This document shows positions 34,097-58,547 of a stretch of 64,000 bases of DNA, piece by piece (within the stretch, counting starts at the first letter, position 1; every line of letters starts with the position of its first letter). The DNA is taken from contig CACBMD010000001.1 in NCBI GenBank assembly GCA_902539895.1, positions 1 to 64,000 of the forward strand, read 5' to 3'. This DNA comes from an uncultured SAR116 cluster alpha proteobacterium. GTDB lineage: Bacteria > Pseudomonadota > Alphaproteobacteria > Puniceispirillales > Marisalimonadaceae. The position numbers and the translations under genes are program-made. The notes beneath the pieces were generated by a model. The model ran no database searches. It saw only the letters and a program-made list of their open reading frames with translations, and was not told the DNA's origin.

Positions 34097-35082
34097 AAAT
34101 CCTCCTCATCTTCTCTTCCAGATAAGGATAGTGCTAATCCGTTGATCTGATTCATTTTGCACCAATGAACTATTGCTTCTTCTCTGCCGTGAGTGACATA
34201 AACATTTTCAGCGCCCGTTAATTTTATATAATGAGTCAACTCATTCCAATCTGCATGATCAGAAATTATAAGAGGAAGTTCAACTAGGCTTTGTTTAGCT
34301 CTTTGTTTGATTGACATCCATCCAGATGCTTGACAAATAATTGGATCTTCGAATTTTCTAGACCATACATTTTTAATTGCAGATGGTGGAGCAAGAATAA
34401 TTTCTCCTTGATACTCCTTTTTATCTTTGAGGTTTGTCTTTAAAAATTTTCCTAAAAAAATTTTTTCTTCTACATAATAATTACATAATTTTTCTAATGC
34501 TCCATGTATAAAAATTTCTTTATCATATCTTTGTTGTCTTAATAAGCCTATTATTCTTTGTGCCTTTCCAAGAGCATAAACTCCAACTAGATGTGGTCTT
34601 TTTGAAAATAATTCAAGTGATCTTAAGAGTTTTTTTATTTCATTATGTTCATTTGGATGTTGAAAAACAGGCAGTCCAAAAGTAGCTTCAGTAACTAAAG
34701 TGTGACATTTTACAGGTTCAAAATTTTCACAAGTTTTATCCTTTTTAGTTTTGTAATCACCTGTAAAATTTATTCTTTCGCCCTTATACTCTGCTAATAC
34801 TTGAACACTTCCTAATATATGTCCAGCTGGATAAAAGGTGATTTTAACATCATCAATTTTTAAAGTTTTATTTAATGTTAACTCTTGAAAATTTTGTGCA
34901 CAATTTTCACCATACCTTATTTTCATAATATTTATTGTCTCTTTTGTTGCTAAGACATTTTTATGACCTGGTTTGGCATGATCAGCATGTCCATGGGTTA
35001 TAATTGCATTTTCCACTGGCTTAGAAGGATCAATATATGTATTGATTGGAGATATATATAAATTTTCATTAATCCATTTCAT
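34093..35082 (-). CDS. Ligase-associated DNA damage response exonuclease (MBL/SNM1-like)
   Basis: This 329-residue metallo-beta-lactamase/beta-CASP-type nuclease has metal motif THGHADHAKPGH. Next come YPAGHILGSVQVL, NFTGDYKTKKDK and, near the end, ISDHADWNELTHYI and VYVTHGREEAIVHW. It is the exonuclease partner encoded with the ligase, which it overlaps by 4 bp. Its start codon lies only 17 bp from the start of the divergent helicase gene. Confidence 0.92.
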   Translation of the reverse strand: MKWINENLYISPINTYIDPSKPVENAIITHGHADHAKPGHKNVLATKETINIMKIRYGENCAQNFQELTLNKTLKIDDVKITFYPAGHILGSVQVLAEYKGERINFTGDYKTKKDKTCENFEPVKCHTLVTEATFGLPVFQHPNEHNEIKKLLRSLELFSKRPHLVGVYALGKAQRIIGLLRQQRYDKEIFIHGALEKLCNYYVEEKIFLGKFLKTNLKDKKEYQGEIILAPPSAIKNVWSRKFEDPIICQASGWMSIKQRAKQSLVELPLIISDHADWNELTHYIKLTGAENVYVTHGREEAIVHWCKMNQINGLALSLSGREDEEDL

Positions 35083-35099
35083 TATAGTAATATATAATA
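35083..35099. promoter_or_regulatory. 17-bp divergent start-to-start region of the ligase/helicase locus
   Basis: Only TATAGTAATATATAATA separates the start codon of the exonuclease gene (minus) from that of the helicase gene (plus). There is no Shine-Dalgarno sequence on either side. Both transcripts must be leaderless or start inside the opposite coding region. The AT-rich tract could hold overlapping -10 elements, which is inference. Confidence 0.5.
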
Positions 35100-37523: not shown

Positions 37524-38185
37524 AGGTAATAAATTTCAATAATCATAAATTTCAAATTAGTAAAGAGGGCATCTTATTTTGGTTTGATAAACAAATTGCA
37601 ATAATTGCAGATTTACACCTTGAAAAAGGAAGTAGTTTTGGTCCTTCTGGTCAATTTTTACCACCTTATGATAGCGAAGAAACTCTAAAAAAAATATTAA
37701 ATACAATTAAAGACCATAATATAAAAAAAATTATCCTTCTAGGTGACACTTTTCATGATAAGAATGCAATCAGTAGAATGTCCAAAAAAGTAATTATTCT
37801 TTTTAGGTCACTTATAGAAAAATACGAAGTTATTTTTATTCTTGGCAATCATGAAAGTAAGTTTGAAATTGGCCAAATAAATTTTTTAAATGAATACGTT
37901 ATTGATGACATACACTTCATTCATGAAGCTTTACAAACAAGTGTATTTCAAATATCTGGACATTTTCATCCAGTAGCTACTGTAAAATCAAATATTAAAA
38001 AAATTACAGCGAAATGTTTGTTACATACAAATAACCACATTATTTTGCCCTCATTTGGTCAATACACTGGTGGTTTAAATATAACTAATCCGGTCTTGAA
38101 ACCGTTTTTAAATAATGAAACTAAAATTTATATGCTTACAAAAAAATCTATTTACAAATTTACAAGTAAAGAAATTGAAATGTAG
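37520..38185 (+). CDS. pdeM: Ligase-associated metallophosphoesterase PdeM
   Basis: This 221-residue calcineurin-like phosphoesterase has the four metal motifs IADLHLEKGSSF, LLGDTFHDKNA, ILGNHESK and SGHFHPVA. The length and order fit PdeM, the fourth member of the ligase-associated repair set. It starts at a TTG overlapping the helicase stop by 4 bp, so it is translationally coupled. Confidence 0.9.
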   Translation: MKVINFNNHKFQISKEGILFWFDKQIAIIADLHLEKGSSFGPSGQFLPPYDSEETLKKILNTIKDHNIKKIILLGDTFHDKNAISRMSKKVIILFRSLIEKYEVIFILGNHESKFEIGQINFLNEYVIDDIHFIHEALQTSVFQISGHFHPVATVKSNIKKITAKCLLHTNNHIILPSFGQYTGGLNITNPVLKPFLNNETKIYMLTKKSIYKFTSKEIEM

Positions 38186-43826: not shown

Positions 43827-45596
43827 TTAATCACCAATAGCTATTCCCTCTCTTCTATGGTCAGATCCTCCGTATAATTTATTATTAATATGGATTATAT
43901 TTAAACCAGACGAAAAATTTCTTAACTTAACTCTATATTTCATATCCTCTAATGAGGGCAACAGCTTGCTCATAATGGTATTTTTCTCTAAATAATAAGT
44001 TCCAAATTTATTTATTCCATGATCTACCGATGCAGCTTCCTGGGCATTTTTCTCCCAATCAATCATTGAAATTATAGCATTTACAACATATCCAATAATA
44101 TTACTTCCTCCAGGACTTCCCAAAATATAAACAGGTTTATTATTTTTTAAGATTATAGTAGGGGCCATAGATGATCTCGGCCTTTTACTTGGTTCAATAC
44201 TATTAGCTACTTTTTTTCCATTTTTAAATGATGTAAATGAGAAATCAGTTAACTCATTATTCAGCAAAAAACCACCATTTGTCATTAATCTAGAACCAAA
44301 TCCATTTTCAATCGTAGTAGTCATTGATAATGCATTTCCATACTGATCTACTATTGAAATATGCGATGTTGATGGGAGCTCTATTGAATTATCTGCACTC
44401 CATTTTATTGATAAATTAGTTGTTAACTTGCCAGGTTTAATTTTCTTAAGTTTAATTTTTCTGTCTAATAATTTTGAGCGATCTTTCAAGTAGTTATTGT
44501 CTAATAACTTTTTAACTGGGACATCTATAAAATCACTATCAGCTATATAGATAGATCTATCCGCAAAAGCTAATCTTGAGGCATCTCCTATTATTCTCCA
44601 AGTCTCAGGATTTTTAGGTCCAAGTTTTGAAATATCAAAATTTTCAATTATTCCTAGAATTTGAGCAATTGTTATAGCTCCTGATGAAGGAGGCCCCATT
44701 CCACATACTTGATATCCTCTATAATTTGAACAAATGGGCTTTCTTTCTATAACCTTATAATTAATCATATCCATAATAGATAAAATTCCAGGATTATGAC
44801 TGGCATTATTCACAGTTGAGACAATATCATTTGCAATATAACCATTATAAAAAACTTCCGATCTATTTTTTTCAAAAGCTTTAAGAGTATTTGCATAATT
44901 TTTATTAAAATGAATGTCACCGGGTTCTAGTGGCATATCATTGGGTAAAAAATAGGATTTAGTTTTCAAAAACTTATTCAATGATTTCCTACTTTTTTTT
45001 ATAGAAGAGCTAAGTTTATTTGAAATTACAAAACCATTATTTGATAAATTAATCGCATCATCGAATAATAAAGACCATTTAGTTTTACCCCATTTTTTAT
45101 ACGCCATTTCAAGTAAAGCTGGAGTACCAGGTGTGCCAACTGATTTTCCTCCTACAACGGCATCAAAAAACTTTAATGGGTTCCCGTTAATATCTTGAAA
45201 TACATTTTCATTAATTAGTAATGGCGCTGTTTCACGACCATCAAGAGTTGTGACTTTTTTAGTTTTATTATCAAAATAAACTAGAAATGCGCCACCACCA
45301 AGACCAGAGGATTCAGGTTCAACTAAACCTAAAACCAATTGAGCTGAAATCATTGCATCTACAGCTGTACCTCCATTTTTAAGTATTTTAGCAGCAGCCT
45401 CAGAAGCTTGGGTATTTGCTGTGACAACCATCCATTTATCAGAAATTACTGGTTTACCTTCTTTTTTGAATTTCAGATATTTATTTCCAGAGTTTAAATT
45501 GTAATTTTCTGATTTGTTTAGATCAGATTTTTGATTCCCAGACGCTAAAATTGGTATAAATAAAAATAAAATAGTTAAAATTTTAATAAAATACAT
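43827..45596 (-). CDS. ggt: Gamma-glutamyltransferase
   Basis: This 589-residue Ntn hydrolase is made as a proenzyme and exported. The signal peptide is YFIKILTILFLFIPILASG. ATEAAAKIL-type text here reads ANTQASEAAAKILKNGGTAV. The autocleavage/catalytic Thr lies in PSTSHISIVDQYGNALSMTT, and SSMAPTIILK and GSPGGSNIIGYV are late signatures. It hydrolyses or transfers gamma-glutamyl groups of glutathione and related peptides in the periplasm. It follows the DehI-like gene by 10 bp. Confidence 0.93.
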   Translation of the reverse strand: MYFIKILTILFLFIPILASGNQKSDLNKSENYNLNSGNKYLKFKKEGKPVISDKWMVVTANTQASEAAAKILKNGGTAVDAMISAQLVLGLVEPESSGLGGGAFLVYFDNKTKKVTTLDGRETAPLLINENVFQDINGNPLKFFDAVVGGKSVGTPGTPALLEMAYKKWGKTKWSLLFDDAINLSNNGFVISNKLSSSIKKSRKSLNKFLKTKSYFLPNDMPLEPGDIHFNKNYANTLKAFEKNRSEVFYNGYIANDIVSTVNNASHNPGILSIMDMINYKVIERKPICSNYRGYQVCGMGPPSSGAITIAQILGIIENFDISKLGPKNPETWRIIGDASRLAFADRSIYIADSDFIDVPVKKLLDNNYLKDRSKLLDRKIKLKKIKPGKLTTNLSIKWSADNSIELPSTSHISIVDQYGNALSMTTTIENGFGSRLMTNGGFLLNNELTDFSFTSFKNGKKVANSIEPSKRPRSSMAPTIILKNNKPVYILGSPGGSNIIGYVVNAIISMIDWEKNAQEAASVDHGINKFGTYYLEKNTIMSKLLPSLEDMKYRVKLRNFSSGLNIIHINNKLYGGSDHRREGIAIGD

Positions 45597-45606
45597 AATT
45601 AATTTT

Positions 45607-46458
45607 CTAATTATTCAAATCTAAGAATCTTTGTTTTTCTATCCATTTTTGCATAATGAAGCCAATTACAACCATTCGTATAACCTTGTCTTTTTCGTAC
45701 ACGTAACTTTTAATTACAGAATAAGCCCTTGAAGATAAATCATTTTTAAAATTAACTTTTGCTTCTATTAACAAACCTCTGTCTTGTAAATATTTTTGAG
45801 TTTTAAACAGTAATGATTGAAGAACTCTTTCCTCAGATAACTTACTTAGTTTTATATACATTATTTCAAGAAAAAAAGGCCAATGGGCCAAGTGTCTCCA
45901 TAAAGTTGCTACATGAGAATTTTTTCCATTTGGCGCGCATATACTGTTAACATTACATACTAGCTGCCAAATATTGGGTTTTATTTCTTCTTTTTTTTGG
46001 AGTTTTCGTAGTACAGGCCAAATTATTTTTTTTTTGTTATTTTTTGGGATTTCTAAGCATCTTGGAAAATTTTGTTTGATAATTGAGTGCAATACAACCA
46101 TATTCATACCATTTGAACGGTTATAAGCTTTTAAAATAATCAAAATTTCTTCCCAATCTTTAGGGGTAAGTCTGCATTTTGAAACCTCTTCATCTGTAAA
46201 TTTTGGCAGTAAAGGAAGTTTAATTTCTTCAATAATTTCTTTTAGTTTTTTTTCAGGATTCTCTGTTTCATATATTGGTCTAGCAATAGTCCAAATTTTT
46301 TCTAAACTATCGTCTATCTCTGCTAAACCTCTCCAAATAGATGTTATGAGTGGAATGTTCATAGTCTCTCTAATATCTTTGAAAATTTTTGCAGTTTCTC
46401 CAATAGCTTCTTTTTCATCTATAACTGAAACTGGGTCATAAGAAATATCAGAATTCAT
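45607..46458 (-). CDS. DehI-like (halocarboxylic acid dehalogenase-like) protein
   Basis: This 283-residue helical protein has two related halves. NIPLITSIWRGLAEIDDSLE and KNSHVATLWRHLAHWPFFLE share the xxxWRxLA pattern, and KLPLLPKFTDEEVSK and KAYNRSNGMNMVVLHSIIKQ link them. This layout matches the DehI family, whose founding member hydrolyses D- and L-2-haloacids. Whether the dehalogenase Asp is kept cannot be settled here. Its neighbours are a TauD-type dioxygenase and gamma-glutamyltransferase on the same strand. Confidence 0.65.
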   Translation of the reverse strand: MNSDISYDPVSVIDEKEAIGETAKIFKDIRETMNIPLITSIWRGLAEIDDSLEKIWTIARPIYETENPEKKLKEIIEEIKLPLLPKFTDEEVSKCRLTPKDWEEILIILKAYNRSNGMNMVVLHSIIKQNFPRCLEIPKNNKKKIIWPVLRKLQKKEEIKPNIWQLVCNVNSICAPNGKNSHVATLWRHLAHWPFFLEIMYIKLSKLSEERVLQSLLFKTQKYLQDRGLLIEAKVNFKNDLSSRAYSVIKSYVYEKDKVIRMVVIGFIMQKWIEKQRFLDLNN

Positions 46459-46479
46459 TTTAAATCATACAATTTAATT

Positions 46480-47385
46480 TTAATTATTATTTAATCTTAC
46501 TTCATTTGAAAATGGACCAAGAACAGGAACTTCTCCTTCAACAGTTCCCCTAATCATTGCTCTTCTATATTTAGCGTAATCATAGGGAATTACCCTATGT
46601 AACAACACTCTATTATCCCACATGATAAGATCATTTTTTTGCCACTTATGGGTATAACAAAATTTAGGCTGGCTAATATAATTAACAAGCCATTTATGTA
46701 ACTCCTTACCTTGTTCCAGGCTCATTCCACCAATTTCAAGGCTTGTATTTGAGGTAAAATAAAGAGATCTTTTAAAGTTTCTATCAGGATGAACTCTTAT
46801 GATAGGATGAGTGACAGGTGGAAAGTTTGATTTCTCTTTATAAGTAAGTTCTGGAAGGCCAGGTTCTAATCTTCTAATATCATTGTAAGAGTGAACTTGG
46901 TGTAGTGGTTCAAAAAGAATTTTTTTATCCTCAGGCAAATGATCATATGCTAACAACATATTTGAAAACTGAGTTTGCCCCCCTTCTGCTTTAGGAGGTA
47001 AAGTTTCTTGACCATATAGGATAGAAAAAATAGATGGTAAATATCTGTAAGAGCTATCTGTATGCCACCTTGAATTATTTTTTTGGAGAATAACTCTTTG
47101 GTCATCAGGATCTAAATGTTCACCATCTTCAGAAACATTAGAAACATTAAATATTTCTATTTTCCCCTTTGTTTTATCTCTTTCTGGATAGGCCTCTAAT
47201 TTACCAAAGTTTTTTGTAAAAGTAGCAAGTGTATCCCCATCTAATTTTTGATTTTTAAAGCATATGAAATGTCTATCTTGAATAGTTTTTTTTAATAAAT
47301 TTAATTCGTCATAACCAATTTTTTTTGAGCAATCAAAATTTCTAACTTCTACACCAAAATCATCAGTTAAGTTTTTAATATCCAT
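46480..47385 (-). CDS. TauD/TfdA-family dioxygenase
   Basis: This intact 301-residue alpha-ketoglutarate-dependent dioxygenase has first His and Asp in NSRWHTDSSYRYLPS. The distal His is in NRVLLHRVIPYDYAKYR, and the Arg binding 2-oxoglutarate is in RRAMIRGTVEG. The overall pattern follows taurine/2,4-D dioxygenases, but the substrate is not determined. A related but interrupted copy lies at 24.5-25.3 kb. It leads a three-gene minus-strand run with DehI-like and GGT genes, and diverges from the VOC gene across 120 bp. Confidence 0.9.
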   Translation of the reverse strand: MDIKNLTDDFGVEVRNFDCSKKIGYDELNLLKKTIQDRHFICFKNQKLDGDTLATFTKNFGKLEAYPERDKTKGKIEIFNVSNVSEDGEHLDPDDQRVILQKNNSRWHTDSSYRYLPSIFSILYGQETLPPKAEGGQTQFSNMLLAYDHLPEDKKILFEPLHQVHSYNDIRRLEPGLPELTYKEKSNFPPVTHPIIRVHPDRNFKRSLYFTSNTSLEIGGMSLEQGKELHKWLVNYISQPKFCYTHKWQKNDLIMWDNRVLLHRVIPYDYAKYRRAMIRGTVEGEVPVLGPFSNEVRLNNN

Positions 47386-47505
47386 TGTGAATTTTCCCTG
47401 TACAAAAATTCATTATTTAACTTTATTGAAATTGTTCTTTTTGTAAACATTTGTTACGTTAACAATTTAATATTCAAAATTATTAATAAAAAATAAGGAT
47501 AATAG

Positions 47506-48339
47506 ATGAATTGGACAATTTTGAATGTCTCCATTCCTGTTTACAATTTACAAAAATCAAAACAATTTTATGATATGCTTATTGGTTATAATGAAAATCA
47601 AAAATTACTTTACCAATCCTTATATAAAAATGAAGAAAGTATTTTTTTTGGTGATAAGGGGTTTGGATTAAGATTATTCAAACCAATTCCAGATTTATCA
47701 ATTTCAAATCATATACAAAGTAGAAGAAGTTATATTACATTATTGGTAGATAATCTTGAAAATATCAAAGAAAAATTAGAACTCAAAGATATAAAGTTTA
47801 TTTATAAAAAATCAGACAATGAGTTATTTAAGAGTCTATATGTTCAAGAGCCTTCATTAAATTTAATACATTTAGTTGAAAACACTTCTGGTTTTGAAGA
47901 TCATGTAAATGGTTGGTCTATGGGTTTGGATTGGGGAATTCATCACATGAATTTAGAATCTTTGAATGTTAGAGAGTCTATTCATTTTTTTTGTGATTTG
48001 TTGGGTATGAAAGAAGGGCAATGGGTTGCACCGGTTAATAAGGGTGATTTTAGTATTGATCCATCTGAATTAGCAATATTACCATTATCTAATAATAATA
48101 GAGGATTACATGTTATAAAGCCTGACGATGGATTTGGTTATAGAAATAATTTTGCACATAATCCATCAATTGCAGGGCATCCAGCATTCACAATTAAAAA
48201 TTTATCGAATTTAACGGCTAAACTTGATGAAGAAAAAATTTTATACTCTGATGCCAAAGTATACGCAATGCCTGGGTTTCATCAGATTTATCTTTATGAC
48301 AATAATGCTAACATGTTAGAAATTAATCAGGCAGTCTAG
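47506..48339 (+). CDS. VOC-family protein (two-domain glyoxalase/extradiol dioxygenase type)
   Basis: This 277-residue protein has two vicinal-oxygen-chelate modules. The first starts LNVSIPVYNLQKSKQFYDML and the second reads WGIHHMNLESLNVRESIHFF followed by CDLLGMKEG. Candidate metal ligands are the His in GIHHMN and HVIKP and the terminal Glu in NMLEINQ. Such enzymes include extradiol dioxygenases and glyoxalases. It leads a plus-strand run with an SDR, a DUF2842 gene and an enolase-superfamily gene, which suggests catabolism of a small organic acid or aromatic. Confidence 0.8.
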   Translation: MNWTILNVSIPVYNLQKSKQFYDMLIGYNENQKLLYQSLYKNEESIFFGDKGFGLRLFKPIPDLSISNHIQSRRSYITLLVDNLENIKEKLELKDIKFIYKKSDNELFKSLYVQEPSLNLIHLVENTSGFEDHVNGWSMGLDWGIHHMNLESLNVRESIHFFCDLLGMKEGQWVAPVNKGDFSIDPSELAILPLSNNNRGLHVIKPDDGFGYRNNFAHNPSIAGHPAFTIKNLSNLTAKLDEEKILYSDAKVYAMPGFHQIYLYDNNANMLEINQAV

Positions 48340-48353
48340 TTTAAATTGAAAAA

Positions 48354-49139
48354 ATGATAAATAGGATTTTTAAAAATGTATGTGTTACTGGAGCTGGAAG
48401 TGGCATCGGGAAAGCTATTGCAATTGCAATGAGCAATCAGGGATATAACGTAACTTGTGCAGATATAAACTTAAAACAAGCTAACGAAACTCTTGAAATA
48501 ATATTAAATAGTAATGGATCGGGTGTTTCAATTGAAACTGATGTTACCAAAATTAATGATATAGAAAACATGATCCTAAAAACTGTAAAGCAATTTGGTA
48601 CAATTGATATTTTAGTAAATAATGCAGGAGTAACTAGAACATCGAATATTATGGATTTAACTGAAAAAGATTGGGATTGGATACATAATGTTAATGCGAA
48701 AGGAACATTCTTTTGTTTACAGATAGCGGCTGACCAAATGATAAAGCAAAACAAAGGAGGAAGAATTATTAACATGGCCTCTGTAGGTGGGAAAGGCTTT
48801 GTAGATGTGTCTAATGCTATTTATGCCGCCAGCAAAGGTGCTGTAATTAGTTTGACAAAAACAGCGGCTCAAGAACTCGCAAAATACGAAATAACTGTAA
48901 ATTCAATTTGCCCAGGTATTACATATACAAATATACTTTCAGATATAGTAAAGAAGAGAGCTTCAGAACAAAATAAAACTGAAGAAGAAATAATGAAACA
49001 TTATGTAAGAGATATTCCTTTAAAGAGACCAAATAATCCAGAAGATATTGCATCAATGGTAGTTTTTTTGTCCTCTGAAGGTGCTAGAAATATTTCTGGT
49101 CAATCATATAATGTTGATGGTGGATTAATTCCAAGTTAA
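48354..49139 (+). CDS. Short-chain dehydrogenase/reductase
   Basis: This 261-residue NAD(P)-dependent SDR has the cofactor motif VTGAGSGIGKAIA and the structural NNAGVTR motif. The catalytic Ser is in INMASVGG, the YxxxK in IYAASKGAV, and the C-terminus is NISGQSYNVDGGLIPS. It follows the VOC gene by 14 bp and is probably part of the same pathway. Substrate unknown. Confidence 0.92.
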   Translation: MINRIFKNVCVTGAGSGIGKAIAIAMSNQGYNVTCADINLKQANETLEIILNSNGSGVSIETDVTKINDIENMILKTVKQFGTIDILVNNAGVTRTSNIMDLTEKDWDWIHNVNAKGTFFCLQIAADQMIKQNKGGRIINMASVGGKGFVDVSNAIYAASKGAVISLTKTAAQELAKYEITVNSICPGITYTNILSDIVKKRASEQNKTEEEIMKHYVRDIPLKRPNNPEDIASMVVFLSSEGARNISGQSYNVDGGLIPS

Positions 49140-49164
49140 TTTAAGTTAAAGTTAGGATTTTAAT

Positions 49165-49368
49165 TTGAAAAGATGGCGTCATTTAATTGTAGTAATTGGA
49201 ATAATCCCTTCATTAATTATTTATGTAGCATTTTTTATGTATATTTTTGATTATATAACAGGCTATCACTGGTCAATAGACTGGTTGATATACATTTTAG
49301 CAGGTTTCCTGTGGTTATACCCTGCTACTAAAGTTATAAAATGGTTGGCAGATAACGAAGCTCATTAA
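49165..49368 (+). CDS. DUF2842-like small membrane protein
   Basis: This 67-residue protein has two hydrophobic spans, LIVVIGIIPSLIIYVAFFMY and a second ending in GFLWLYPATKVIKWL. Size and pattern fit DUF2842, a small alphaproteobacterial membrane family of unknown role. It starts at TTG with AGGAT upstream and is embedded between the SDR and the enolase-superfamily gene. Confidence 0.65.
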   Translation: MKRWRHLIVVIGIIPSLIIYVAFFMYIFDYITGYHWSIDWLIYILAGFLWLYPATKVIKWLADNEAH

Positions 49369-49385
49369 AATATAATAGGTTAAAT

Positions 49386-50483
49386 ATGAAAATAACTAAT
49401 TTAGAGGTTTACGAATTAAAAATACCATTTTCAATAGGCATAAAATCATCCTCAGCTGACTTTTTGAAACAAGATGGAATGGATTTTTGTGTTATCAAAA
49501 TTGAAACAGATAACGGTATTACTGGTTGGGGTGACGCATTTTCATTTAATTGTAGAAGAGCTGTTTCAGAAGTAATTCTAAATATGGTTAAACCACACCT
49601 AATTGGAAAAAACCCACTAGATGTTCAGAATATAAATTTTGAATTACAAAAAAAGCTCCATCTTTTTGGACGTTATGGGATTACAATGTTTGCAATCAGT
49701 GGAGTAGATATAGCTCTGTGGGACATTGTAGCCAAAAATAGTAATTTACCATTGTGCAATGTTTTAGGATCAGCGGGTATTAAAAAGATACCCGCATATG
49801 CAAGTTTATGGCGCTATGAAAATAAGGAGGCAGTTAAAGATAGATGTTCATATGCCAAAAATTTGGGATATAATTATATAAAATTACATGAAGTGTTTAC
49901 ATCCGAAGTTAGAGCAGCTAGGGAAGTGCTTGGTGAAGAGATCCCAATTATGGTTGATACAAATTGTCCATGGACAAAAGATGAAGCAAGACAAATACTA
50001 AATAGTTGGGAAGAATTTAATTTATATTGGGTTGAAGAACCTATAAATCCACCAGAAGATTTTGAAAGTTTGTCTAATATTAGATCTGAATCACTTATTC
50101 CATTAGCAGCAGGAGAAAATGCTTGTACTTCATTTGAATTTAAAAAAATGTTTGAAGCTGAAGCTGTTGATTATGCCCAACCAAGTGTAACAAAAGTTGG
50201 TGGTATCACTGAATTTAATAAAGTTGTTTCAATATCTCAAAGTTATGGAGTACAGGTAATGCCGCATTCTCCTTATTTTGGGCCAGGGTTTTTAGCCACA
50301 TTGCATCTTGCTCAATCAATGCCTAATCCAGGACTTTTAGAGAGGTTTTTTATTGACCTTGAGGCTTATCTATATCCTGAAGATATTTTTACTCCGAGAG
50401 ATGGTTTTTTTAAAATTAATGGTGGTATAGGATTGGGATATGAACCTGATGTAAATGTATTAAAAGACTACATTGTAAAATAA
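49386..50483 (+). CDS. Mandelate racemase/muconate lactonizing enzyme family protein
   Basis: This 365-residue enolase-superfamily enzyme has a capping domain (about 1-120) followed by the barrel. Barrel residues include YIKLHEV (catalytic Lys), the metal ligands in IMVDTNCPW, YWVEEPINPP and AAGENACTS, and the general-base His region VMPHSPYFGPG. Members abstract a proton next to a carboxylate (racemisation, dehydration or cycloisomerisation). The substrate is unknown but should be an acid handled by the VOC and SDR neighbours. Confidence 0.9.
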   Translation: MKITNLEVYELKIPFSIGIKSSSADFLKQDGMDFCVIKIETDNGITGWGDAFSFNCRRAVSEVILNMVKPHLIGKNPLDVQNINFELQKKLHLFGRYGITMFAISGVDIALWDIVAKNSNLPLCNVLGSAGIKKIPAYASLWRYENKEAVKDRCSYAKNLGYNYIKLHEVFTSEVRAAREVLGEEIPIMVDTNCPWTKDEARQILNSWEEFNLYWVEEPINPPEDFESLSNIRSESLIPLAAGENACTSFEFKKMFEAEAVDYAQPSVTKVGGITEFNKVVSISQSYGVQVMPHSPYFGPGFLATLHLAQSMPNPGLLERFFIDLEAYLYPEDIFTPRDGFFKINGGIGLGYEPDVNVLKDYIVK

Positions 50484-50484
50484 A

Positions 50485-51105
50485 TTAATATCCTGCTCCA
50501 GATTTGGAAGTTTCACTTTCTGGAACATAAGTTTCAAAAGCCATTGATTTCAATCTTTCCCAACATTTATCGTTAAGATTAGTTACTTCTTTATTTTTTT
50601 TGAAACTAGTAAATTTAGTATTTTTTTCCTCTATATAATCATAAGTTTTTAAGTAAGAATAACTTGTAACTTTAGTATCTAGATTTGAATTAACATATAT
50701 TTTTTTTTCTTTTGTAAATGCAATTATCTCTTTTTGCTCATTTTCTAATATCAAATTAATTTGTTGTTCTTCTGCAATTATTCCCATAGCTGCAAGTAAA
50801 AATTTTGAGTTATCTATATAGCCCTCCCAAGTAATTTTGTTTGCAGAAACATATTCTACTAGAAGCAGTCCTATTAAAGCAGAAGCTAATGGTTTTTTAT
50901 TTGTGTTTTCATTAATTGAAATAGTTATTTCTTTTTTTTGATAAAGGTCTGCTGTTTTTAAAATTGATCCAAGAAAATTTTGACCGTGTTGTACTAACCA
51001 TTTTGCTTTGTTTGCAGAGTCTTTAGCTAAACTCCATTCAATATTAACACTTCGTAATGCTTTGTAAGTTTCTGAGTATATCTCATTCAAAGAAACACTA
51101 ATCAT
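50485..51105 (-). CDS. DUF3726-like protein
   Basis: This protein of about 206 residues matches, as I recognise it, the DUF3726 family in its N-terminal ISVSLNEIYSETYKALRSVN and WSLAKDSANKAKWLVQHGQN segments. The track start at 51138 lies inside the upstream gene; ATG 51105, two bases after that gene's stop, is where family similarity begins. It is the last of three genes with an M19 dipeptidase and a large unknown protein. Function unknown. Confidence 0.65.
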   Translation of the reverse strand: MISVSLNEIYSETYKALRSVNIEWSLAKDSANKAKWLVQHGQNFLGSILKTADLYQKKEITISINENTNKKPLASALIGLLLVEYVSANKITWEGYIDNSKFLLAAMGIIAEEQQINLILENEQKEIIAFTKEKKIYVNSNLDTKVTSYSYLKTYDYIEEKNTKFTSFKKNKEVTNLNDKCWERLKSMAFETYVPESETSKSGAGY

Positions 51106-51107
51106 AA

Positions 51108-52811
51108 TTATACATTTGATAAATTTGGAAATAGCCAATCATTTATGTTCTTTTTCCATAATTCATTAGGTAGTGGGGCTCCTTGAAAAAGAGTTATTCT
51201 TGTCCATAAATTAGATTTAGGATCAAATTTTGAGGCTCCAAAAAAACTTAATTTACACCTCAAAATATCAATCGGCCTCATATCCTTACCAATTAAATTA
51301 TTTTGTATCTCGCTGTATGGCATTGATTTATTAATGATAACTCTCTTAATTATATTCCTTAATTCTGGGTGATTTATCATTACTTCAGCAGCAGTCATAT
51401 TAGAAGGTAATTTATTTAATGTATTTACTGCTTGTTTTATCTGATGAGCAATATCAAAAGGTAGTTGTTTTTCTATTCCAGCATCTTTTTTTGTAATACC
51501 AAGACGTGGTTCTAATTTTGTTTGAGAAGTATACCAGAAACAATAATTTTCTTCAGGTTTTGAAGTGTCTATTTTAATAGCCCAATTAAAATTATCTTTA
51601 ATAATGTCTAGTATATCGTTAACTGTATAACTTATAAAAACAGATTTTTTTTCTTCTGCTCCCATATTATTTATTAAATCCTCTAATAACTCAGGAAAAG
51701 GTTCAATAAAGATAGAGTTTAGCATTTCTTGTGTTTCTAAAGTGATATCATCTTTAAAGAAATTAAAAAATCTTTTAATAGGATAATCAAAATTCAAAAG
51801 CTTCGTCAGTTCTTCATTTTGTAAAATTTTTTTTAGGTCTGAGTTTAGCTTCTCAATTTTTTTTGACTGTAATTTATCATCAACTTTCCATTGTAAGCTG
51901 TATTTAAATGCTTGATGGATATAATTTATAATTTTATTTTGTGTTTTTTTATTTAGTCGTTTAATTGAAAAAACTCTCGATATAGCTGTTTCTCTATTAT
52001 AAATCCATTGATGAATTAACTCTTGATGGTTTACCAAAAATGGAGCCATACCTAAACCCGTAGCATTGCCCACTCCTAAATGTTTTGTAAGGTGTTTGGA
52101 TAGAATTACAGATTTTTTACCTCCTTTTTTTTTAGCAAGAAAATTAATTAATTCTATTGAAAAATATCTAACAAGATACACAGTCAACATTTCTGCCTGA
52201 AAAGGTTTTTGTAAAAAGATATGTCCGTTGGTTTTAGAAAAATCTTCTATCCCAAATTTACCATTGCCATATACAGCAGTAGTTCTAACAAGGTAACCTA
52301 CATCATTAATAAGTTTTTCAGATGGCTGTTTTCCAATTGATAAATCATTTAATACTTTTTCAAATATTCTTTGAGACTTGTTAGCTCTACTTAAAGTTAA
52401 CTGTTTTGAATTATGTCTTCCTGATTCCTGTATTATCAGATTTTTGGATAATTGATTTAATTCATTTTTATTTGGGATACCCTTAAAAAGTGAGAAAGTC
52501 ATATCCCATTTCTCAGCTATAACTCTATCAGTTCTCTCTTCATCATTTATAGAATGGCAAAAGATTACTAGTGATAAAGTTTCTTTTTTTAAAGCTAATT
52601 TAATAATAGCACTTCCAATTCCACTATTATCAATATCCCATTGGTAAATTTCTATTTTACTTTTTTGATACTTAAGATCATCAATAAGACGCCTTGTGAA
52701 AGATAGACGTGATTGATGAAAGCTTCCTAATCTATCAAGTTTCATAACTGTTGAGGGTGATCTTATAGGATGATTATAGTCCAAATTACTTGTAGTGTTT
52801 TGAAAGCTCAT
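51108..52811 (-). CDS. Large hypothetical protein of the dipeptidase/DUF3726 operon
   Basis: This 567-residue soluble protein has no signal peptide or membrane helices. Distinctive segments are LDRLGSFHQSRLSFTRRLID at the start, GLGMAPFLVNHQELIHQWIY in the middle and KLEPRLGITKKDAGIEKQLP later. The length and unbroken frame make it a real gene. I do not recognise a domain or catalytic motif. It follows the M19 dipeptidase by 3 bp and precedes the DUF3726-like gene by 2 bp, so the three almost certainly act together. Confidence 0.75.
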   Translation of the reverse strand: MSFQNTTSNLDYNHPIRSPSTVMKLDRLGSFHQSRLSFTRRLIDDLKYQKSKIEIYQWDIDNSGIGSAIIKLALKKETLSLVIFCHSINDEERTDRVIAEKWDMTFSLFKGIPNKNELNQLSKNLIIQESGRHNSKQLTLSRANKSQRIFEKVLNDLSIGKQPSEKLINDVGYLVRTTAVYGNGKFGIEDFSKTNGHIFLQKPFQAEMLTVYLVRYFSIELINFLAKKKGGKKSVILSKHLTKHLGVGNATGLGMAPFLVNHQELIHQWIYNRETAISRVFSIKRLNKKTQNKIINYIHQAFKYSLQWKVDDKLQSKKIEKLNSDLKKILQNEELTKLLNFDYPIKRFFNFFKDDITLETQEMLNSIFIEPFPELLEDLINNMGAEEKKSVFISYTVNDILDIIKDNFNWAIKIDTSKPEENYCFWYTSQTKLEPRLGITKKDAGIEKQLPFDIAHQIKQAVNTLNKLPSNMTAAEVMINHPELRNIIKRVIINKSMPYSEIQNNLIGKDMRPIDILRCKLSFFGASKFDPKSNLWTRITLFQGAPLPNELWKKNINDWLFPNLSNV

Positions 52812-52814
52812 CTT

Positions 52815-53786
52815 TTAAACTGACCTAAATGAATTCTTGAAAAAATTTAACCAATTTTTACCTTTAATTTTATCAACTTCTTCTTCATTAAAACCAATAT
52901 CTTTTAACCCAGTTATAATATTATTCCAGTCTCTATTATCTCTAAACCAAGTTGGCATATTAGGAAAACCTGGGTTAGAAGCAGAGCCCTCACCATAGTC
53001 AATATTTTTGGTCCACTTACCCACTCTCATCCATTCTACAATACTATCAGGTTGATCTTGGCATAAATCTGATCCGAAACCTATATGATTAATTCCCATA
53101 ATATCGACTGTTTTTGCTATCATTGAACAAAAATCCTCTAACGTACAACTGCTTCTATTATTTAGATGATGTGGGTAAAGTGAAAATCCTAAAATGCCAT
53201 TACTTTCTGCTAGTTTGGATAAAATATTATTAGATTTATTTCTTTTAGCTGAATACCAAAAAGATGGATTGGCATGACTTATAACAATTGGTCTTTCGGA
53301 TACTTCAATAGCTTGCAGAGTTGATTTCTCAGAAGAATGAGACATATCAACAACCATTCCCACTCTATTCATTTCTTTTATTACTTCTTTACCCATTCTA
53401 GTAATACCTGGGTCATTTTCTTCGTAACAACCGGTCGCTAATAATGATTGATTATTATATGAAAGTTGCATAAACCGTCCACCAAGTCTGTGAAGAATTT
53501 CAACCAAACCGATGTCATTTTCAATAGGTGATGGATTTTGAAATCCAAAAATTATTGCTGTTTTATTTAGTTTTTTTGCTTGCTCGACATCCTCCGCAAA
53601 ATATGCTGGCATTATAAGTGAAGGATATTGTTCAAACCATTTATTCCATTGTTCAAAATTTGAAACTGTTTCTCTGAATTGTTCATGATAAGAAATTGTT
53701 ACGTGTATAGCGGTGACATTAGAATATCTTAACTCACGGAATATTTTTTCAGACCAATTACAATATTGTAAACCATCAATAAGCAT
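52815..53786 (-). CDS. Membrane dipeptidase-like hydrolase (peptidase M19 family)
   Basis: This 323-residue TIM-barrel metallohydrolase belongs to the renal dipeptidase family. Metal and catalytic segments are VVDMSHSSEKSTLQAIE, PIVISHANPSFWYSAKRN and HIGFGSDLCQDQPDSIVEWM. No signal peptide is seen, so it is probably cytoplasmic. It is the first gene of a tight three-gene operon with two uncharacterised proteins, which suggests a specialised amide or lactone substrate rather than ordinary dipeptides. Confidence 0.85.
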   Translation of the reverse strand: MLIDGLQYCNWSEKIFRELRYSNVTAIHVTISYHEQFRETVSNFEQWNKWFEQYPSLIMPAYFAEDVEQAKKLNKTAIIFGFQNPSPIENDIGLVEILHRLGGRFMQLSYNNQSLLATGCYEENDPGITRMGKEVIKEMNRVGMVVDMSHSSEKSTLQAIEVSERPIVISHANPSFWYSAKRNKSNNILSKLAESNGILGFSLYPHHLNNRSSCTLEDFCSMIAKTVDIMGINHIGFGSDLCQDQPDSIVEWMRVGKWTKNIDYGEGSASNPGFPNMPTWFRDNRDWNNIITGLKDIGFNEEEVDKIKGKNWLNFFKNSFRSV

Positions 53787-53925
53787 TTAAAACAATTATC
53801 ATATTTATGAATTATGGTGAATTATTAAATTTTTCTAGTTTTTTTAATAGATTTACTTGTTATTGCCTGAATTTTTTATTATTCAGTAGATTTAAAATAG
53901 ATTGTTTTATAAGTGAGAAATTTAA

Positions 53926-54972
53926 TTGAATTATAAATATTTAGGCAATTCGGACTTAAAGGTATCAACTTATTGCCTTGGTACAATGACATTTGGAGAA
54001 ACAACTTCAGAAGAGGATGGTCATTATCAATTAGATGAGTCATTAGCATCAGGAATTAATTTTATTGATACAGCTGAAATGTATCCAACATGTCCATTAA
54101 GACCTGAAACCACTGGTGATACTGAAATTATAGTTGGAAATTGGATTTCAAAAAATAAATCTAAAAGATCCTCGATAGTCCTTGCAACTAAAGTTTCTGG
54201 TAAAGGCTACATGGCAGTAAGAAATGGCGAGGGCATAAATGCCGAAACTGTAAAAATTGCAGTTGAAGGAAGTTTAAAAAAACTTCAAACTGATTATATT
54301 GATCTCTATCAATTACATTGGCCAAATAGGGGATCTTATCATTTTAGACAAAATTGGAATTATGATCCAACCAAACAAAATAATGAAGAAGTTAAGGAAA
54401 ATCTTCGAGGTGTTATAAATTCTTTATCTGAACTTCAAAAAGAAGGAAAATTTAGATATCTTGGACTATCAAACGAAACCTGTTGGGGTACATTACAATT
54501 TATTAAATTTTTAAAAGACTTTCCAAATCTAAAGTTAGTCTCCACTCAAAATGAGTATAGCTTGCTGTGCAGATTATACGACCTAGATATGGCTGAAATG
54601 TCTCACCATGAAAATATAAGTTTATTAGCTTATTCACCACTCGCAGGTGGATTTTTAACAGGCAAGTACATGAATGATAATGTACCTAATAATTCAAGAT
54701 TATCTAGAGTACCTAGTTTGTTTGGACGAATTAATGAAAATTCTACCTTAGCAGTCTCTGAGTATGTGTCATTAGCTAATAAATATCAAATTGATCCAGT
54801 GCACATGGCTATAGCTTTTTGTAATAAGAGACCTTTTATGGGGTCAGTTATTTTTGGTGCAACTGATAAAGCACAATTTAAAAATATTTTAAAAGGTGTA
54901 GATGTTGTACTTTCTGAAGAAATGATGTTGGAAATTAATCAATTATATAAAAAATTTCCAATTACTTTTTAG
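53926..54972 (+). CDS. Aldo/keto reductase (Tas-like)
   Basis: This 348-residue NADPH-dependent aldo/keto reductase has STYCLGTMTFGE at the start, INFIDTAEMYPTCPLRPETT with the catalytic Asp and Tyr, and YIDLYQLHWPNR with the active-site His region. YRYLGLSNET-like text here reads FRYLGLSNETCWG, followed by LLAYSPLAGGFLTGKY. The AEMYP wording resembles the Tas subgroup. It starts at a TTG. The 139 bp upstream, divergent from the dipeptidase gene, contains a weak CTGAAT/ATTCAG inverted repeat. Confidence 0.9.
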   Translation: MNYKYLGNSDLKVSTYCLGTMTFGETTSEEDGHYQLDESLASGINFIDTAEMYPTCPLRPETTGDTEIIVGNWISKNKSKRSSIVLATKVSGKGYMAVRNGEGINAETVKIAVEGSLKKLQTDYIDLYQLHWPNRGSYHFRQNWNYDPTKQNNEEVKENLRGVINSLSELQKEGKFRYLGLSNETCWGTLQFIKFLKDFPNLKLVSTQNEYSLLCRLYDLDMAEMSHHENISLLAYSPLAGGFLTGKYMNDNVPNNSRLSRVPSLFGRINENSTLAVSEYVSLANKYQIDPVHMAIAFCNKRPFMGSVIFGATDKAQFKNILKGVDVVLSEEMMLEINQLYKKFPITF

Positions 54973-56178
54973 TTACTCTAAAGCATTTCCAATTTCTTTA
55001 AAAACAGAGAACATCAACTCTTCTGTTTTTATATTAATTGGATCAGATGCTGATGACATTCTAATTATTGTAAGTTCTTTTTTAGGGTTAATCCAAATAT
55101 TTTGACCATGTATACCTATTGCACAGAATTCATTTTCTTCAAAACCTGTTTGATACCATTTTGATCTATAATTTCCATTAGGAAATCTTTTTAAATCATC
55201 TTGATTTAAGTAACATGAGTTATCTTCATAATTCTTAATATCATTTATCCAGTTTTCTGGAACTATTTGCCCATTTTTGTTTGCGCCATTTGTACGTACC
55301 ATTTCTGAAATTAATAATAAGTCGTATGGTGATATACTAATTCCGCCTGCTGATCTAGTTGCACCAAATCTATCTAGTGTTACATTGGCATCATTTATTA
55401 TTCCTGAGGGTTTGAATAATAAATCAGATATAATTTTAGAATACTTATCTCCTGAGACTCTCTCAATTATCCAACCCAACAAATCACTATGTGGAGAGCA
55501 ATAATGATATTTTTTTCCATGTAGATGCATAGATTTTGGCAAATTTGAAAGAAATTCATGTAAACCACTTAAATGTGTCATATCATTATTCGATGGTATA
55601 TCCCATCCTGTGGAGGATCTATATTTTTGAAATATTTCAGCTTTTCCTGAATAATCTTCTATAAAATTAGATGCTACATTCATATCAAGAACATTTCTTA
55701 TAGTCGCATCTTCATAAGCTGAACCAATTGTTTCTGGTAAAATTTTAGATACGGTAGTATTCACGTCAATTAATTTTTTATCTACTAAAATACCTGTCAA
55801 CAAACTAGTAAGTGATTTGGAAATTGAAAATATAATGTGAGGTGTTTCATAAGTTGTAAAATTATTAAAAAATTCAAAAACTAATTTTCCTTTGTGCATT
55901 ACAAGGAGACTGTCAGTATTACAATCAACTAAAATATCTTTCAATTTTTTTTTAGTATTATTATGAGAAATTTTTATTTCATCGAGGTTTGTTAACTTTT
56001 TAATAAAATCAATTTTTTGTTTTGCTTCAAACTTAATTGAAGAAGTAGGAATAATATTTCTTACATTTACAAATGCCCAAATATTATATGGATATTTTCG
56101 CCAATTTTCTAATGTTACTTGATATTCCAAAGGTGGCGGACTTCCTTTCATAATTTTATTCGCATCTAATTTTATCAT
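54973..56178 (-). CDS. Serine hydrolase, beta-lactamase class C fold
   Basis: This 401-residue protein of the AmpC/esterase (Beta-lactamase, class C) superfamily has the SxxK nucleophile motif in IFSISKSLTSLLTG. The second motif is YHYCSPHSDLLGWIIE (Tyr-x-Ser type) and a third region is GIHGQNIWINPKKELTIIR. No signal peptide is seen, so an esterase or amidase role inside the cell is more likely than antibiotic resistance. It abuts the aldo/keto reductase stop, tail to tail. Confidence 0.85.
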   Translation of the reverse strand: MIKLDANKIMKGSPPPLEYQVTLENWRKYPYNIWAFVNVRNIIPTSSIKFEAKQKIDFIKKLTNLDEIKISHNNTKKKLKDILVDCNTDSLLVMHKGKLVFEFFNNFTTYETPHIIFSISKSLTSLLTGILVDKKLIDVNTTVSKILPETIGSAYEDATIRNVLDMNVASNFIEDYSGKAEIFQKYRSSTGWDIPSNNDMTHLSGLHEFLSNLPKSMHLHGKKYHYCSPHSDLLGWIIERVSGDKYSKIISDLLFKPSGIINDANVTLDRFGATRSAGGISISPYDLLLISEMVRTNGANKNGQIVPENWINDIKNYEDNSCYLNQDDLKRFPNGNYRSKWYQTGFEENEFCAIGIHGQNIWINPKKELTIIRMSSASDPINIKTEELMFSVFKEIGNALE

Positions 56179-56278
56179 TTACTATCTTTATATAACTTGG
56201 TTAAAAAATATAATTACATTTGACAAATATCTAATTTAAACATACCCCATTATAATCTTAATCAGTAAAGAGATACTA

Positions 56279-57490
56279 ATGAATTTAACATTTAATGATA
56301 TTACAAACGTTCACAAAAAAATAAAAGATAATGTCAAATGGACTGAAACTACTTTCACATCTTCTATTTCAGAAAAATTAGGTATAGATACGTTCTTGAA
56401 GTTAGAAAATAGACAGCATACTGGTGCTTTTAAAATACGAGGCTCCTATTCAAAATTATTATCTTTGTCAGCTGCAGAAAAAAAAGCAGGTGTGGTTGCT
56501 ATGTCAGCCGGCAATCATGCGCAGGGTTTGGCTTATATTTCCAATAAAATGAATATTAAATCAAACATTGTTATGCCTGAAGGCACTCCATTTACAAAAA
56601 TTAGAAGGACACAAAATTTTGGTGGAAATGTAATTATTAAAGGTCAGGATTTAAATGAATCATATCAACATGTTCAAGACTTAATTTTAAATAATGGTTT
56701 TGTAGAGATACATCCATACAATGATCTTAATGTAATTTTAGGGCAAGGCACAATTTCATATGAAATGATTACAGATTGCAATGAAATAGATGTTTTATTA
56801 GTTCCTGTTGGTGGAGGAGGGTTAATTGCCGGTTGCTCAATAGCAGCTAAACACATGAAAAAAGACATTGAAGTTATAGGTGTAGAATCTGATCTTTACC
56901 CATCATTGTCTAACAAAATGTTTAATAAGAAATCAAAGTGTAAAGGTTCAACTTTAGCAGAAGGTATTGCAGTAGCAGAAATAGGTGATATTCCTTTTTC
57001 AATATTAAAGGATTTTGTTGATGATGTTTTAACTGTTTCTGATAAATCGATTGAAAGAGCTATTGCAATGTTAGCAGAGCATGAAAAAATAGTTGTTGAA
57101 GGAGCTGGTGCTACAGGTTTAGCAGCTTTATTGCAACATGGAACTAAGTTTAAAAATAAAAAAGTTGGAATTGTCATCTGTGGGGGTAATATCGATTCTA
57201 AAGTATTGTCCTCAATTTTAATGAGAGATCTAGTGAGATCAGGTCAGGTGACAACTTTGGGTATTACTATGCCTGACAAACCAGGACAATTGCAGATAAT
57301 TTCAAAAATATGCGCTGTGAATGGAGCAAACGTCTTGCAAGTTGAGCACAGTAGGTTTGCAATGGATCTTTCGGCTAGTTTAGCAAAATTAAATATAACT
57401 ATTGAAACACAGAATGCTTCTCATCTAAAAAAAATTATAAAGGAAATTGAGATCAACGATTTGCCAGTTAATATAGAAGGTATAATTTAA
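56279..57490 (+). CDS. Threonine dehydratase (PLP, with C-terminal ACT domain)
   Basis: This 403-residue fold type II PLP enzyme has the cofactor Lys in HTGAFKIRGSYSK, the substrate loop MSAGNHAQGLAYI and the phosphate-binding glycine loop VPVGGGGLIAGC. The C-terminal 75 residues form an ACT-like domain (LGITMPDKPGQLQIISKICA). It deaminates threonine or serine to the 2-oxoacid. The length fits the ACT-containing catabolic/biosynthetic ilvA-type short form found in alphaproteobacteria. Confidence 0.92.
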   Translation: MNLTFNDITNVHKKIKDNVKWTETTFTSSISEKLGIDTFLKLENRQHTGAFKIRGSYSKLLSLSAAEKKAGVVAMSAGNHAQGLAYISNKMNIKSNIVMPEGTPFTKIRRTQNFGGNVIIKGQDLNESYQHVQDLILNNGFVEIHPYNDLNVILGQGTISYEMITDCNEIDVLLVPVGGGGLIAGCSIAAKHMKKDIEVIGVESDLYPSLSNKMFNKKSKCKGSTLAEGIAVAEIGDIPFSILKDFVDDVLTVSDKSIERAIAMLAEHEKIVVEGAGATGLAALLQHGTKFKNKKVGIVICGGNIDSKVLSSILMRDLVRSGQVTTLGITMPDKPGQLQIISKICAVNGANVLQVEHSRFAMDLSASLAKLNITIETQNASHLKKIIKEIEINDLPVNIEGII

Positions 57491-57491
57491 T

Positions 57492-58547
57492 TTATATTTT
57501 ACCTAATTTTAGATGTATAATTTCATTTTTTGAACCAAGTCTTATTTTTGGTCCCCAGCATGCTGCACCTGAACTTACGTATAGGTTTGAGTTATTCATA
57601 CTATATAAACCATAGATAAATTTGAATTTCAATTTAACTATAAAGTTAAAAGGAAATATTTGTCCATTGTGAGTATGACCTGATAACATAAGATGATTTT
57701 TGCAATTTAATTTTTGCCAAATATCCGGTTTATGACAGACAACCAAATTGAATAAATTATCATCACAAAGCTTGTTTGCAAAATCAATTTTTGATTTTTC
57801 AGTCTGGTTATCATCAATTCCAATCAGATTAATATCTTCAATTTGTATCTTTGTGTTTCTTAAATGTTTAATATTAAAGGATGAAAGTTGACTCATTTTA
57901 TTTTGAAAATCTTTTAAGTAATATTCATGATTACCACTAACAAAATATATTGGTTTGTTAATTTCATTTAGAATATTTAGATCTTTAAAATTAAAAGAAC
58001 TAGAGTCGATCAAATCTCCACCGACCAATAAAAAATCAAAATTAATTTTTTTAATTTTTTTAATAATTTTTACTAAGTGGTTTGTGTTGTTACTTCCTAG
58101 ATGAACATCACTTATAAATAATACTTGATAGTTTTTTAATAAATTTGGTGATTTTATATCTATTTTTTTGATATTTATGGTTCTTGCATTATATGAACCA
58201 AACAAATAAATCAAAATTATTAATATTAGGGAAATTATTCCGATAAAGAATGTGTTGAATTGTAAAATATAATTAAAAGAAACACATATTGATACTACCA
58301 TAAAACTAATAAAACCAATTCCTAAACCTTCATAAACAAAAAATTTTAATGGTTTAAAACTATTATTTGATCTTAAATAGTACAAAATTAAAATATAAAA
58401 AATTATAGTATTTATTAAAGAATATTGAAATGATTGTGTTTGATTAAACAGTAATTCATTTAATGTTTCGAATGGGAAAATATAAAATAGATACGTAATT
58501 ATAAATAAAATAAAATAAAATAAAAACCTGTAGATATTTTTATTCAT
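57492..58547 (-). CDS. Membrane-anchored metallophosphoesterase (YkuE/YaeI-like)
   Basis: This protein of about 352 residues has four N-terminal hydrophobic spans (about 5-135) followed by a calcineurin-like domain. Metal motifs are FISDVHLGSNNT, LVGGDLIDSSS, FVSGNHEYYL, CHKPDIWQ and SGHTHNGQIFPF. The track start at 58613 lies inside the photolyase gene; ATG 58547 directly after the photolyase stop is better. Family relatives act on UDP-glucosamine lipids or other phosphoesters, but the substrate here is unknown. Confidence 0.88.
   Translation of the reverse strand: MNKNIYRFLFYFILFIITYLFYIFPFETLNELLFNQTQSFQYSLINTIIFYILILYYLRSNNSFKPLKFFVYEGLGIGFISFMVVSICVSFNYILQFNTFFIGIISLILIILIYLFGSYNARTINIKKIDIKSPNLLKNYQVLFISDVHLGSNNTNHLVKIIKKIKKINFDFLLVGGDLIDSSSFNFKDLNILNEINKPIYFVSGNHEYYLKDFQNKMSQLSSFNIKHLRNTKIQIEDINLIGIDDNQTEKSKIDFANKLCDDNLFNLVVCHKPDIWQKLNCKNHLMLSGHTHNGQIFPFNFIVKLKFKFIYGLYSMNNSNLYVSSGAACWGPKIRLGSKNEIIHLKLGKI

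Follow-up and report, generated by a model that had tools for sequence, protein, structure and literature searches.

A conserved three-gene operon core in a SAR116 bacterium with a probable role in homarine breakdown

Homarine (N-methylpicolinate) is a common and abundant osmolyte of algae; the SAR116 clade, common in the surface ocean, is known chiefly through single-cell genomes and metagenomes. A chemical precedent for breakdown of such a compound is the trigonelline pathway encoded by the Acinetobacter tgn genes, which opens the N-methylpyridinium ring, oxidizes the aldehyde and hydrolyzes the N-formyl amide. The homarine operon of Ferrer-Gonzalez and colleagues is reportedly homABCDER, comprising five genes along with a regulator. 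The report of a catabolic pathway for homarine dates from 2026 (Ferrer-Gonzalez et al., Nat Microbiol, doi 10.1038/s41564-026-02313-7, cited in PMC13390433), Mgd participates in homarine catabolism (PMC13390433) and R. pomeroyi draws homarine down rapidly (PMC12817926).

The genes described here lie in a window of 64,000 nucleotides, the whole stretch of SAR116 DNA that was analyzed, from an assembly of 1.44 Mb in 71 contigs that is 68.8% complete. ORF calling placed three genes in tandem on the minus strand, downstream of an A+T-rich intergenic region:

52815–53786, minus strand: M19 gene, first of the unit; 323 aa, Peptidase_M19/amidohydrolase fold, non-canonical
51108–52811, minus strand: gene of the 567-aa protein, a family without a name
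50485–51105, minus strand: DUF3726 (PF12525) gene, 206 aa from its ATG
53787–53925, no strand: A+T-rich intergenic region between the starts of M19 and a divergent aldo/keto reductase gene

The M19 and 567-aa genes are separated by 3 bp, and the ATG of DUF3726 lies 2 bp past the stop codon of the 567-aa gene (a longer ORF, 50485–51138, begins at TTG); these ORF coordinates bear out the tight unit of the original prediction. An enolase-superfamily gene, convergent with the unit, ends 1 bp past DUF3726, and the aldo/keto reductase gene begins 139 bp upstream of M19. Neither was counted in the unit, since both lie on the other strand and neither turned up among its companions in annotated records of other lineages. 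Close relatives keep the identical three-gene order and both flanks; the nearest named ones are SAR116 single-cell genomes, whose 567-aa proteins are 95–96% identical. Judged by position, the promoter probably lies in 53787–53925, where promoter-like matches were no commoner than in shuffled sequence. Promoter and terminator scans of 50200–54200 likewise gave matches not above shuffles, and no Rfam families were found in 45000–58000.

Elsewhere in the window, 45607–46458 encodes a 283-aa protein with no Pfam family above cut-off and a weak DehI haloacid dehalogenase hint (E 0.11), and 29763–31595 a 610-aa protein with no Pfam match. An apparent DNA-repair cluster, read partly from sequence, packs ligase-like, metallo-beta-lactamase-fold, helicase-like and calcineurin-like phosphoesterase genes into 32531–38185. 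Two adjoining ORFs at 837–1994 resemble a split TPP-dependent decarboxylase, the first with a weak TPP_enzyme_N match.

A profile of the 567-aa family, compared with public genomes, yielded at least 583 confirmed coding stretches, from which 80 loci were fetched. The protein has no match above cut-off among Pfam, NCBIfam and PDB profiles; the original view of it as an unknown is corrected in that it has relatives in hundreds of genomes, the count of stretches being a lower bound. A DUF3726-like ORF directly follows the 567-aa gene in nearly all fetched loci with enough downstream sequence, and the two often have the 4-bp overlap seen in translational coupling. Among 192 alphaproteobacterial genomes, DUF3726 was found in 24, all of which carry the 567-aa gene with DUF3726 downstream at a gap of 5–72 bp (Fisher p about 5e-26 for co-occurrence over the 192 genomes). 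The 567-aa gene itself is present in 29 of the 192 genomes, and an M19 gene lies within 2.5 kb of it in 24 of these. Neighborhood conservation of DUF3726 genes, proposed earlier as a check on the grouping, is complete with respect to the 567-aa gene in this set (24 of 24), and the three genes are not scattered in other genomes. With the short Pfam profile, five of the 29 genomes gave no DUF3726 match, but at least three of the five carry fragments or broken copies. At two loci (L026 of Mesorhizobium, 815 aa; L069, 773 aa), the 567-aa and DUF3726 proteins are fused, as a complex of both would lead one to expect. Together these genes make up the core of an operon that is widely conserved and, in other lineages, larger than in the window.

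In Rhodobacterales and rhizobia, the order runs LysR, aldehyde dehydrogenase, M19, optionally a BCCT transporter, 567-aa gene, DUF3726 and often an Ldh-type reductase. The top score of the operon aldehyde dehydrogenase is for alpha-ketoglutaric semialdehyde dehydrogenase, though under that family's cut-off. Betaine transporters (glycine-betaine ABC or BCCT) accompany the operon in rhizobia, Roseobacters and others, and a sarcosine-oxidase-like complex is often linked to it in Rhodobacterales and rhizobia; near Roseobacter operons this complex may be an N-methylglutamate dehydrogenase or a sarcosine oxidase. Aliiroseovarius has a self-contained module of four sarcosine-oxidase-like subunits, an HTH regulator, LysR, aldehyde dehydrogenase, M19, 567-aa, DUF3726, Ldh and BCCT genes, and the Ruegeria TM1040 counterpart of its HTH regulator joins AraC-type HTH and DJ-1/PfpI domains. 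Two SAR116 loci (L050 and L053) carry sarcosine-oxidase-like subunits upstream of M19–567-aa–DUF3726, with an Ldh_2 gene in between in L053. The beta subunit of the L053 complex passes the sarcosine oxidase cut-off; alpha, gamma and delta do not reach theirs. The closest plasmid relatives of the SAR116 oxidase-like copy include ones beside 567-aa operons.

Further features were seen around some copies. Genes for the large, FeS and FAD subunits of a molybdenum hydroxylase are found downstream of DUF3726 at L053:13281–16992, and ORFs of similar size are present at L050:10679–14389. One copy, 66% identical to the SAR116 protein, is on a contig labeled Bacteroidetes (L040), probably through contamination of that bin. 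A record named Roseateles sp. XES5 (L033) has an operon closely like that of Shinella and is flagged UNVERIFIED_ORG; its name may be wrong.

The conserved order, the two fusions and the companions (aldehyde dehydrogenase, Ldh-type reductase and betaine transporters) give good support to a dedicated catabolic pathway. The original prediction of a dedicated hydrolytic pathway holds in its first part, whereas hydrolysis can explain one step at most: metal ligands are gone from the M19 protein, DUF3726 is kin to NAD(P)H-dependent reductases and the other usual members are oxidoreductases. In our assessment, the three genes are probably the core of an operon for breaking down a betaine-like compound with an N-methyl group, most likely homarine. 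The companions suggest a betaine-like substrate that gives rise to an aldehyde, an amide and an N-methyl imino acid, possibly ending at the sarcosine-oxidase-like demethylase; homarine fits as a betaine-like methylpyridinium and through the role of Mgd in its catabolism (PMC13390433).

We infer both the substrate and every reaction step, as follows. The 567-aa and DUF3726 proteins would activate the N-methylpyridinium ring and open it between C5 and C6 to an N-formyl-N-methyl amino acid bearing an aldehyde at C5, which the aldehyde dehydrogenase would oxidize to the carboxylate. The M19-fold protein would then cleave the N-formyl amide with release of formate, the Ldh_2-type reductase would convert the N-methyl imino acid to N-methylglutamate, and the sarcosine-oxidase-like complex, acting as N-methylglutamate dehydrogenase, would demethylate this to glutamate. 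From homarine (C7) to N-methylglutamate (C6) one carbon is lost, plausibly as formate. This route has the same chemical logic as the Acinetobacter trigonelline pathway. Ring opening there, however, is the work of a flavin-dependent monooxygenase with a reductase, and the 567-aa/DUF3726 pair matches no such family.

The operon is probably the one described for homarine in 2026. Five genes plus a regulator, the reported makeup of homABCDER, fit the aldehyde dehydrogenase, M19, 567-aa, DUF3726 and Ldh genes plus LysR found around the homologues, an agreement in gene number that is a lead and not a test, whereas only three of those six genes are together in the window. The original prediction of a pathway not yet described is thus probably out of date; what is left as new is probably the chemistry of the 567-aa/DUF3726 pair.

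We propose that the 567-aa protein is the large subunit of the ring-opening enzyme, with DUF3726 as its partner. Its AlphaFold model is of high quality (pLDDT 91, pTM 0.91), and a Foldseek search of the PDB and viral libraries returned nothing at E ≤ 0.001; a phage match was also looked for, and none was found. Over 72 sequences from two subfamilies, 25 residues are invariant, including R96, D103, Y173, R176, E362, W410, W426, Y427, E434, R436 and R490. The Trp and Tyr residues may form a box for a cationic ring. No His or Cys is invariant in these sequences, which argues against the usual iron site, and the protein has no recognized oxygenase motif. A second, divergent family, 23–30% identical, occurs on Sinorhizobium pSymB and in Aminobacter, Mesorhizobium ciceri and Natrinema. 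At these loci in rhizobia and the haloarchaeon Natrinema (L156:11944–15390, L157:12127–14657, L158:12061–14462 and L159:11956–15364), each 567-aa relative is followed by a small protein that scores weakly for DUF3726, and in Sinorhizobium and Aminobacter an M19 gene comes next too. The pair therefore appears to represent a wider type of two-part enzyme.

DUF3726 itself is not mentioned in the literature searched. The window protein is a borderline match to PF12525 (20.4 bits, or 22.2 when the genomes were searched, for a cut-off of 22.1), and 54 of 57 homologues match that profile at E ≤ 1. With its predicted model (pLDDT 88), the best 22 Foldseek matches were all of Ldh_2 type (probability 0.63–1.00, E 0.003–0.16, TMq 0.36–0.44), and hhalign aligned the N-terminal 56 columns with Ldh_2 (PF02615) at E 7e-5 and a probability of 63%. 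The Natrinema partner in the same position is a nearly full Ldh_2 protein, matching that family at E 4.8e-9 with a score that narrowly misses the curated cut-off. Together, the fold matches, the N-terminal profile comparison and the Natrinema match point to DUF3726 as a reduced relative of Ldh_2, the family of type 2 malate/lactate dehydrogenase, ureidoglycolate dehydrogenase and piperideine-2-carboxylate reductase. The two have the predicted fold and N-terminal profile in common, but DUF3726, at about 206 aa, apparently lacks the central region with the T-N-P motif, which is invariant in operon Ldh_2 proteins and absent from the DUF3726 alignment rows viewed (one row in two). Its C-terminal tail is conserved, with a Ser and a Gly-Ala-Gly. 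We propose DUF3726 as the small partner subunit of the 567-aa protein.

These features also bear on a variant of the pathway that is compatible with homarine, in which the 567-aa and DUF3726 proteins are a reductase or hydratase that dearomatizes the ring without oxygen, the carbon being lost later by decarboxylation and not as formate. The resemblance of DUF3726 to an NAD(P)H-dependent reductase family is in its favor, as is the lack of an invariant His or Cys to hold iron in the 567-aa protein. However, the apparent loss of the central part and T-N-P motif makes NAD(P)H binding by DUF3726 doubtful, and the amidohydrolase-fold gene and the purU near some copies fit release of formate; we regard this variant as possible but rather unlikely.

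Less probable still is that the same operon serves another betaine (trigonelline, proline betaine, pipecolate betaine or a carnitine-like compound) and feeds sarcosine or methylamine metabolism instead of N-methylglutamate. The transporters are indeed of generic betaine types, sarcosine-oxidase-like genes are common, Rieske demethylases are among the neighbors in Phaeobacter and Ruegeria THAF33, purU lies near some other copies and the divergent 567-aa family of Sinorhizobium adjoins a different kind of ABC transporter. Saturated betaines, however, would not need a ring-opening pair together with an aldehyde dehydrogenase and an imine reductase, and trigonelline, with its nitrogen beta to the carboxylate, would give no N-methyl alpha-amino acid.

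The M19 protein has a clear family assignment (Peptidase_M19, PF01244, E 1.8e-74, 251 bits against a cut-off of 26), and its closest solved relative is 2i5g (E 2.3e-54), with which it has a non-canonical ligand pattern in common. With family M19, which includes renal dipeptidase and GliJ, it has in common the fold, the strand His residues, the Arg-Asn and the Asp: H150, H171, R182 and D240 are kept in 68 of 68 operon-type homologues and N183 in 67. The canonical His-x-Asp and bridging Glu, by contrast, three of the five metal ligands, are missing in all 68, replaced by Leu/Cys-Gln-Tyr/Phe and Gln (Leu-Gln-Tyr and Gln in the window protein). Canonical M19 controls of the same class (L143–L146) have every ligand, including these three. 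Several further M19 paralogues have the same loss, which marks it as a trait of a subfamily. The 'dipeptidase-like hydrolase' of the original prediction has the profile match but lacks the His-x-Asp and Glu metal ligands of true dipeptidases. A real dipeptidase in a unit for peptide uptake or trimming, to which the other two genes would be accessory, is highly improbable despite the strong Pfam match, as the missing ligands led us to reject that function and the conserved companions are redox enzymes together with transporters of betaines instead of peptides. From its sequence, the M19 protein may be a one-metal or metal-free amidohydrolase, and we propose that it hydrolyzes an amide (N-formyl) bond. 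In Shinella zoogloeoides (L029:13009–14001), the first conserved strand His of the M19 protein is replaced by Asp.

In the genus of the window, only M19, the 567-aa gene and DUF3726 stay together; the Ldh and oxidase-like genes, where found, are at a separate locus that also has a RidA-like gene and two TRAP transporters. Across 23 genomes of this genus, Ldh (54% or more) and oxidase-like genes occur in 6 of 12 genomes with the 567-aa gene and in none of 11 without it (p 0.009, uncorrected for relatedness and completeness of the genomes). Several observations count against assigning the operon to homarine. Orthologs of Ldh (54% or more) or the oxidase-like genes were found neither in the source genome nor in another genome with the 567-aa gene that is 99% complete (G014). 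The oxidase-like complex could be a genuine sarcosine oxidase, plasmid relatives of the L053 subunit occurring in other surroundings too, including glycine-betaine-like contexts. Some copies of the 567-aa family adjoin other transporters, and the missing oxygenase motif of the 567-aa protein also speaks against the assignment.

'Membrane dipeptidase' is a misleading label for the operon-type M19 subfamily, and the DUF3726 family gains a structural relation to Ldh_2. As the 567-aa/DUF3726 pair has no recognized relative among solved structures, assaying the pair directly could bring new enzyme chemistry to light. Tentatively, and at less than even odds, the 567-aa protein and its partner of reduced Ldh_2 type may be an enzyme class of a new kind, novel in fold, in which N-methylated pyridinium rings are opened with no conserved metal site. 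The class would be spread among Proteobacteria of sea and soil, and its divergent relatives in rhizobia and haloarchaea would act on other N-heterocycles. If homarine is the substrate, these genes would tie a named and abundant compound to a common surface-ocean group that has been seen mostly through single-cell and metagenome assemblies.
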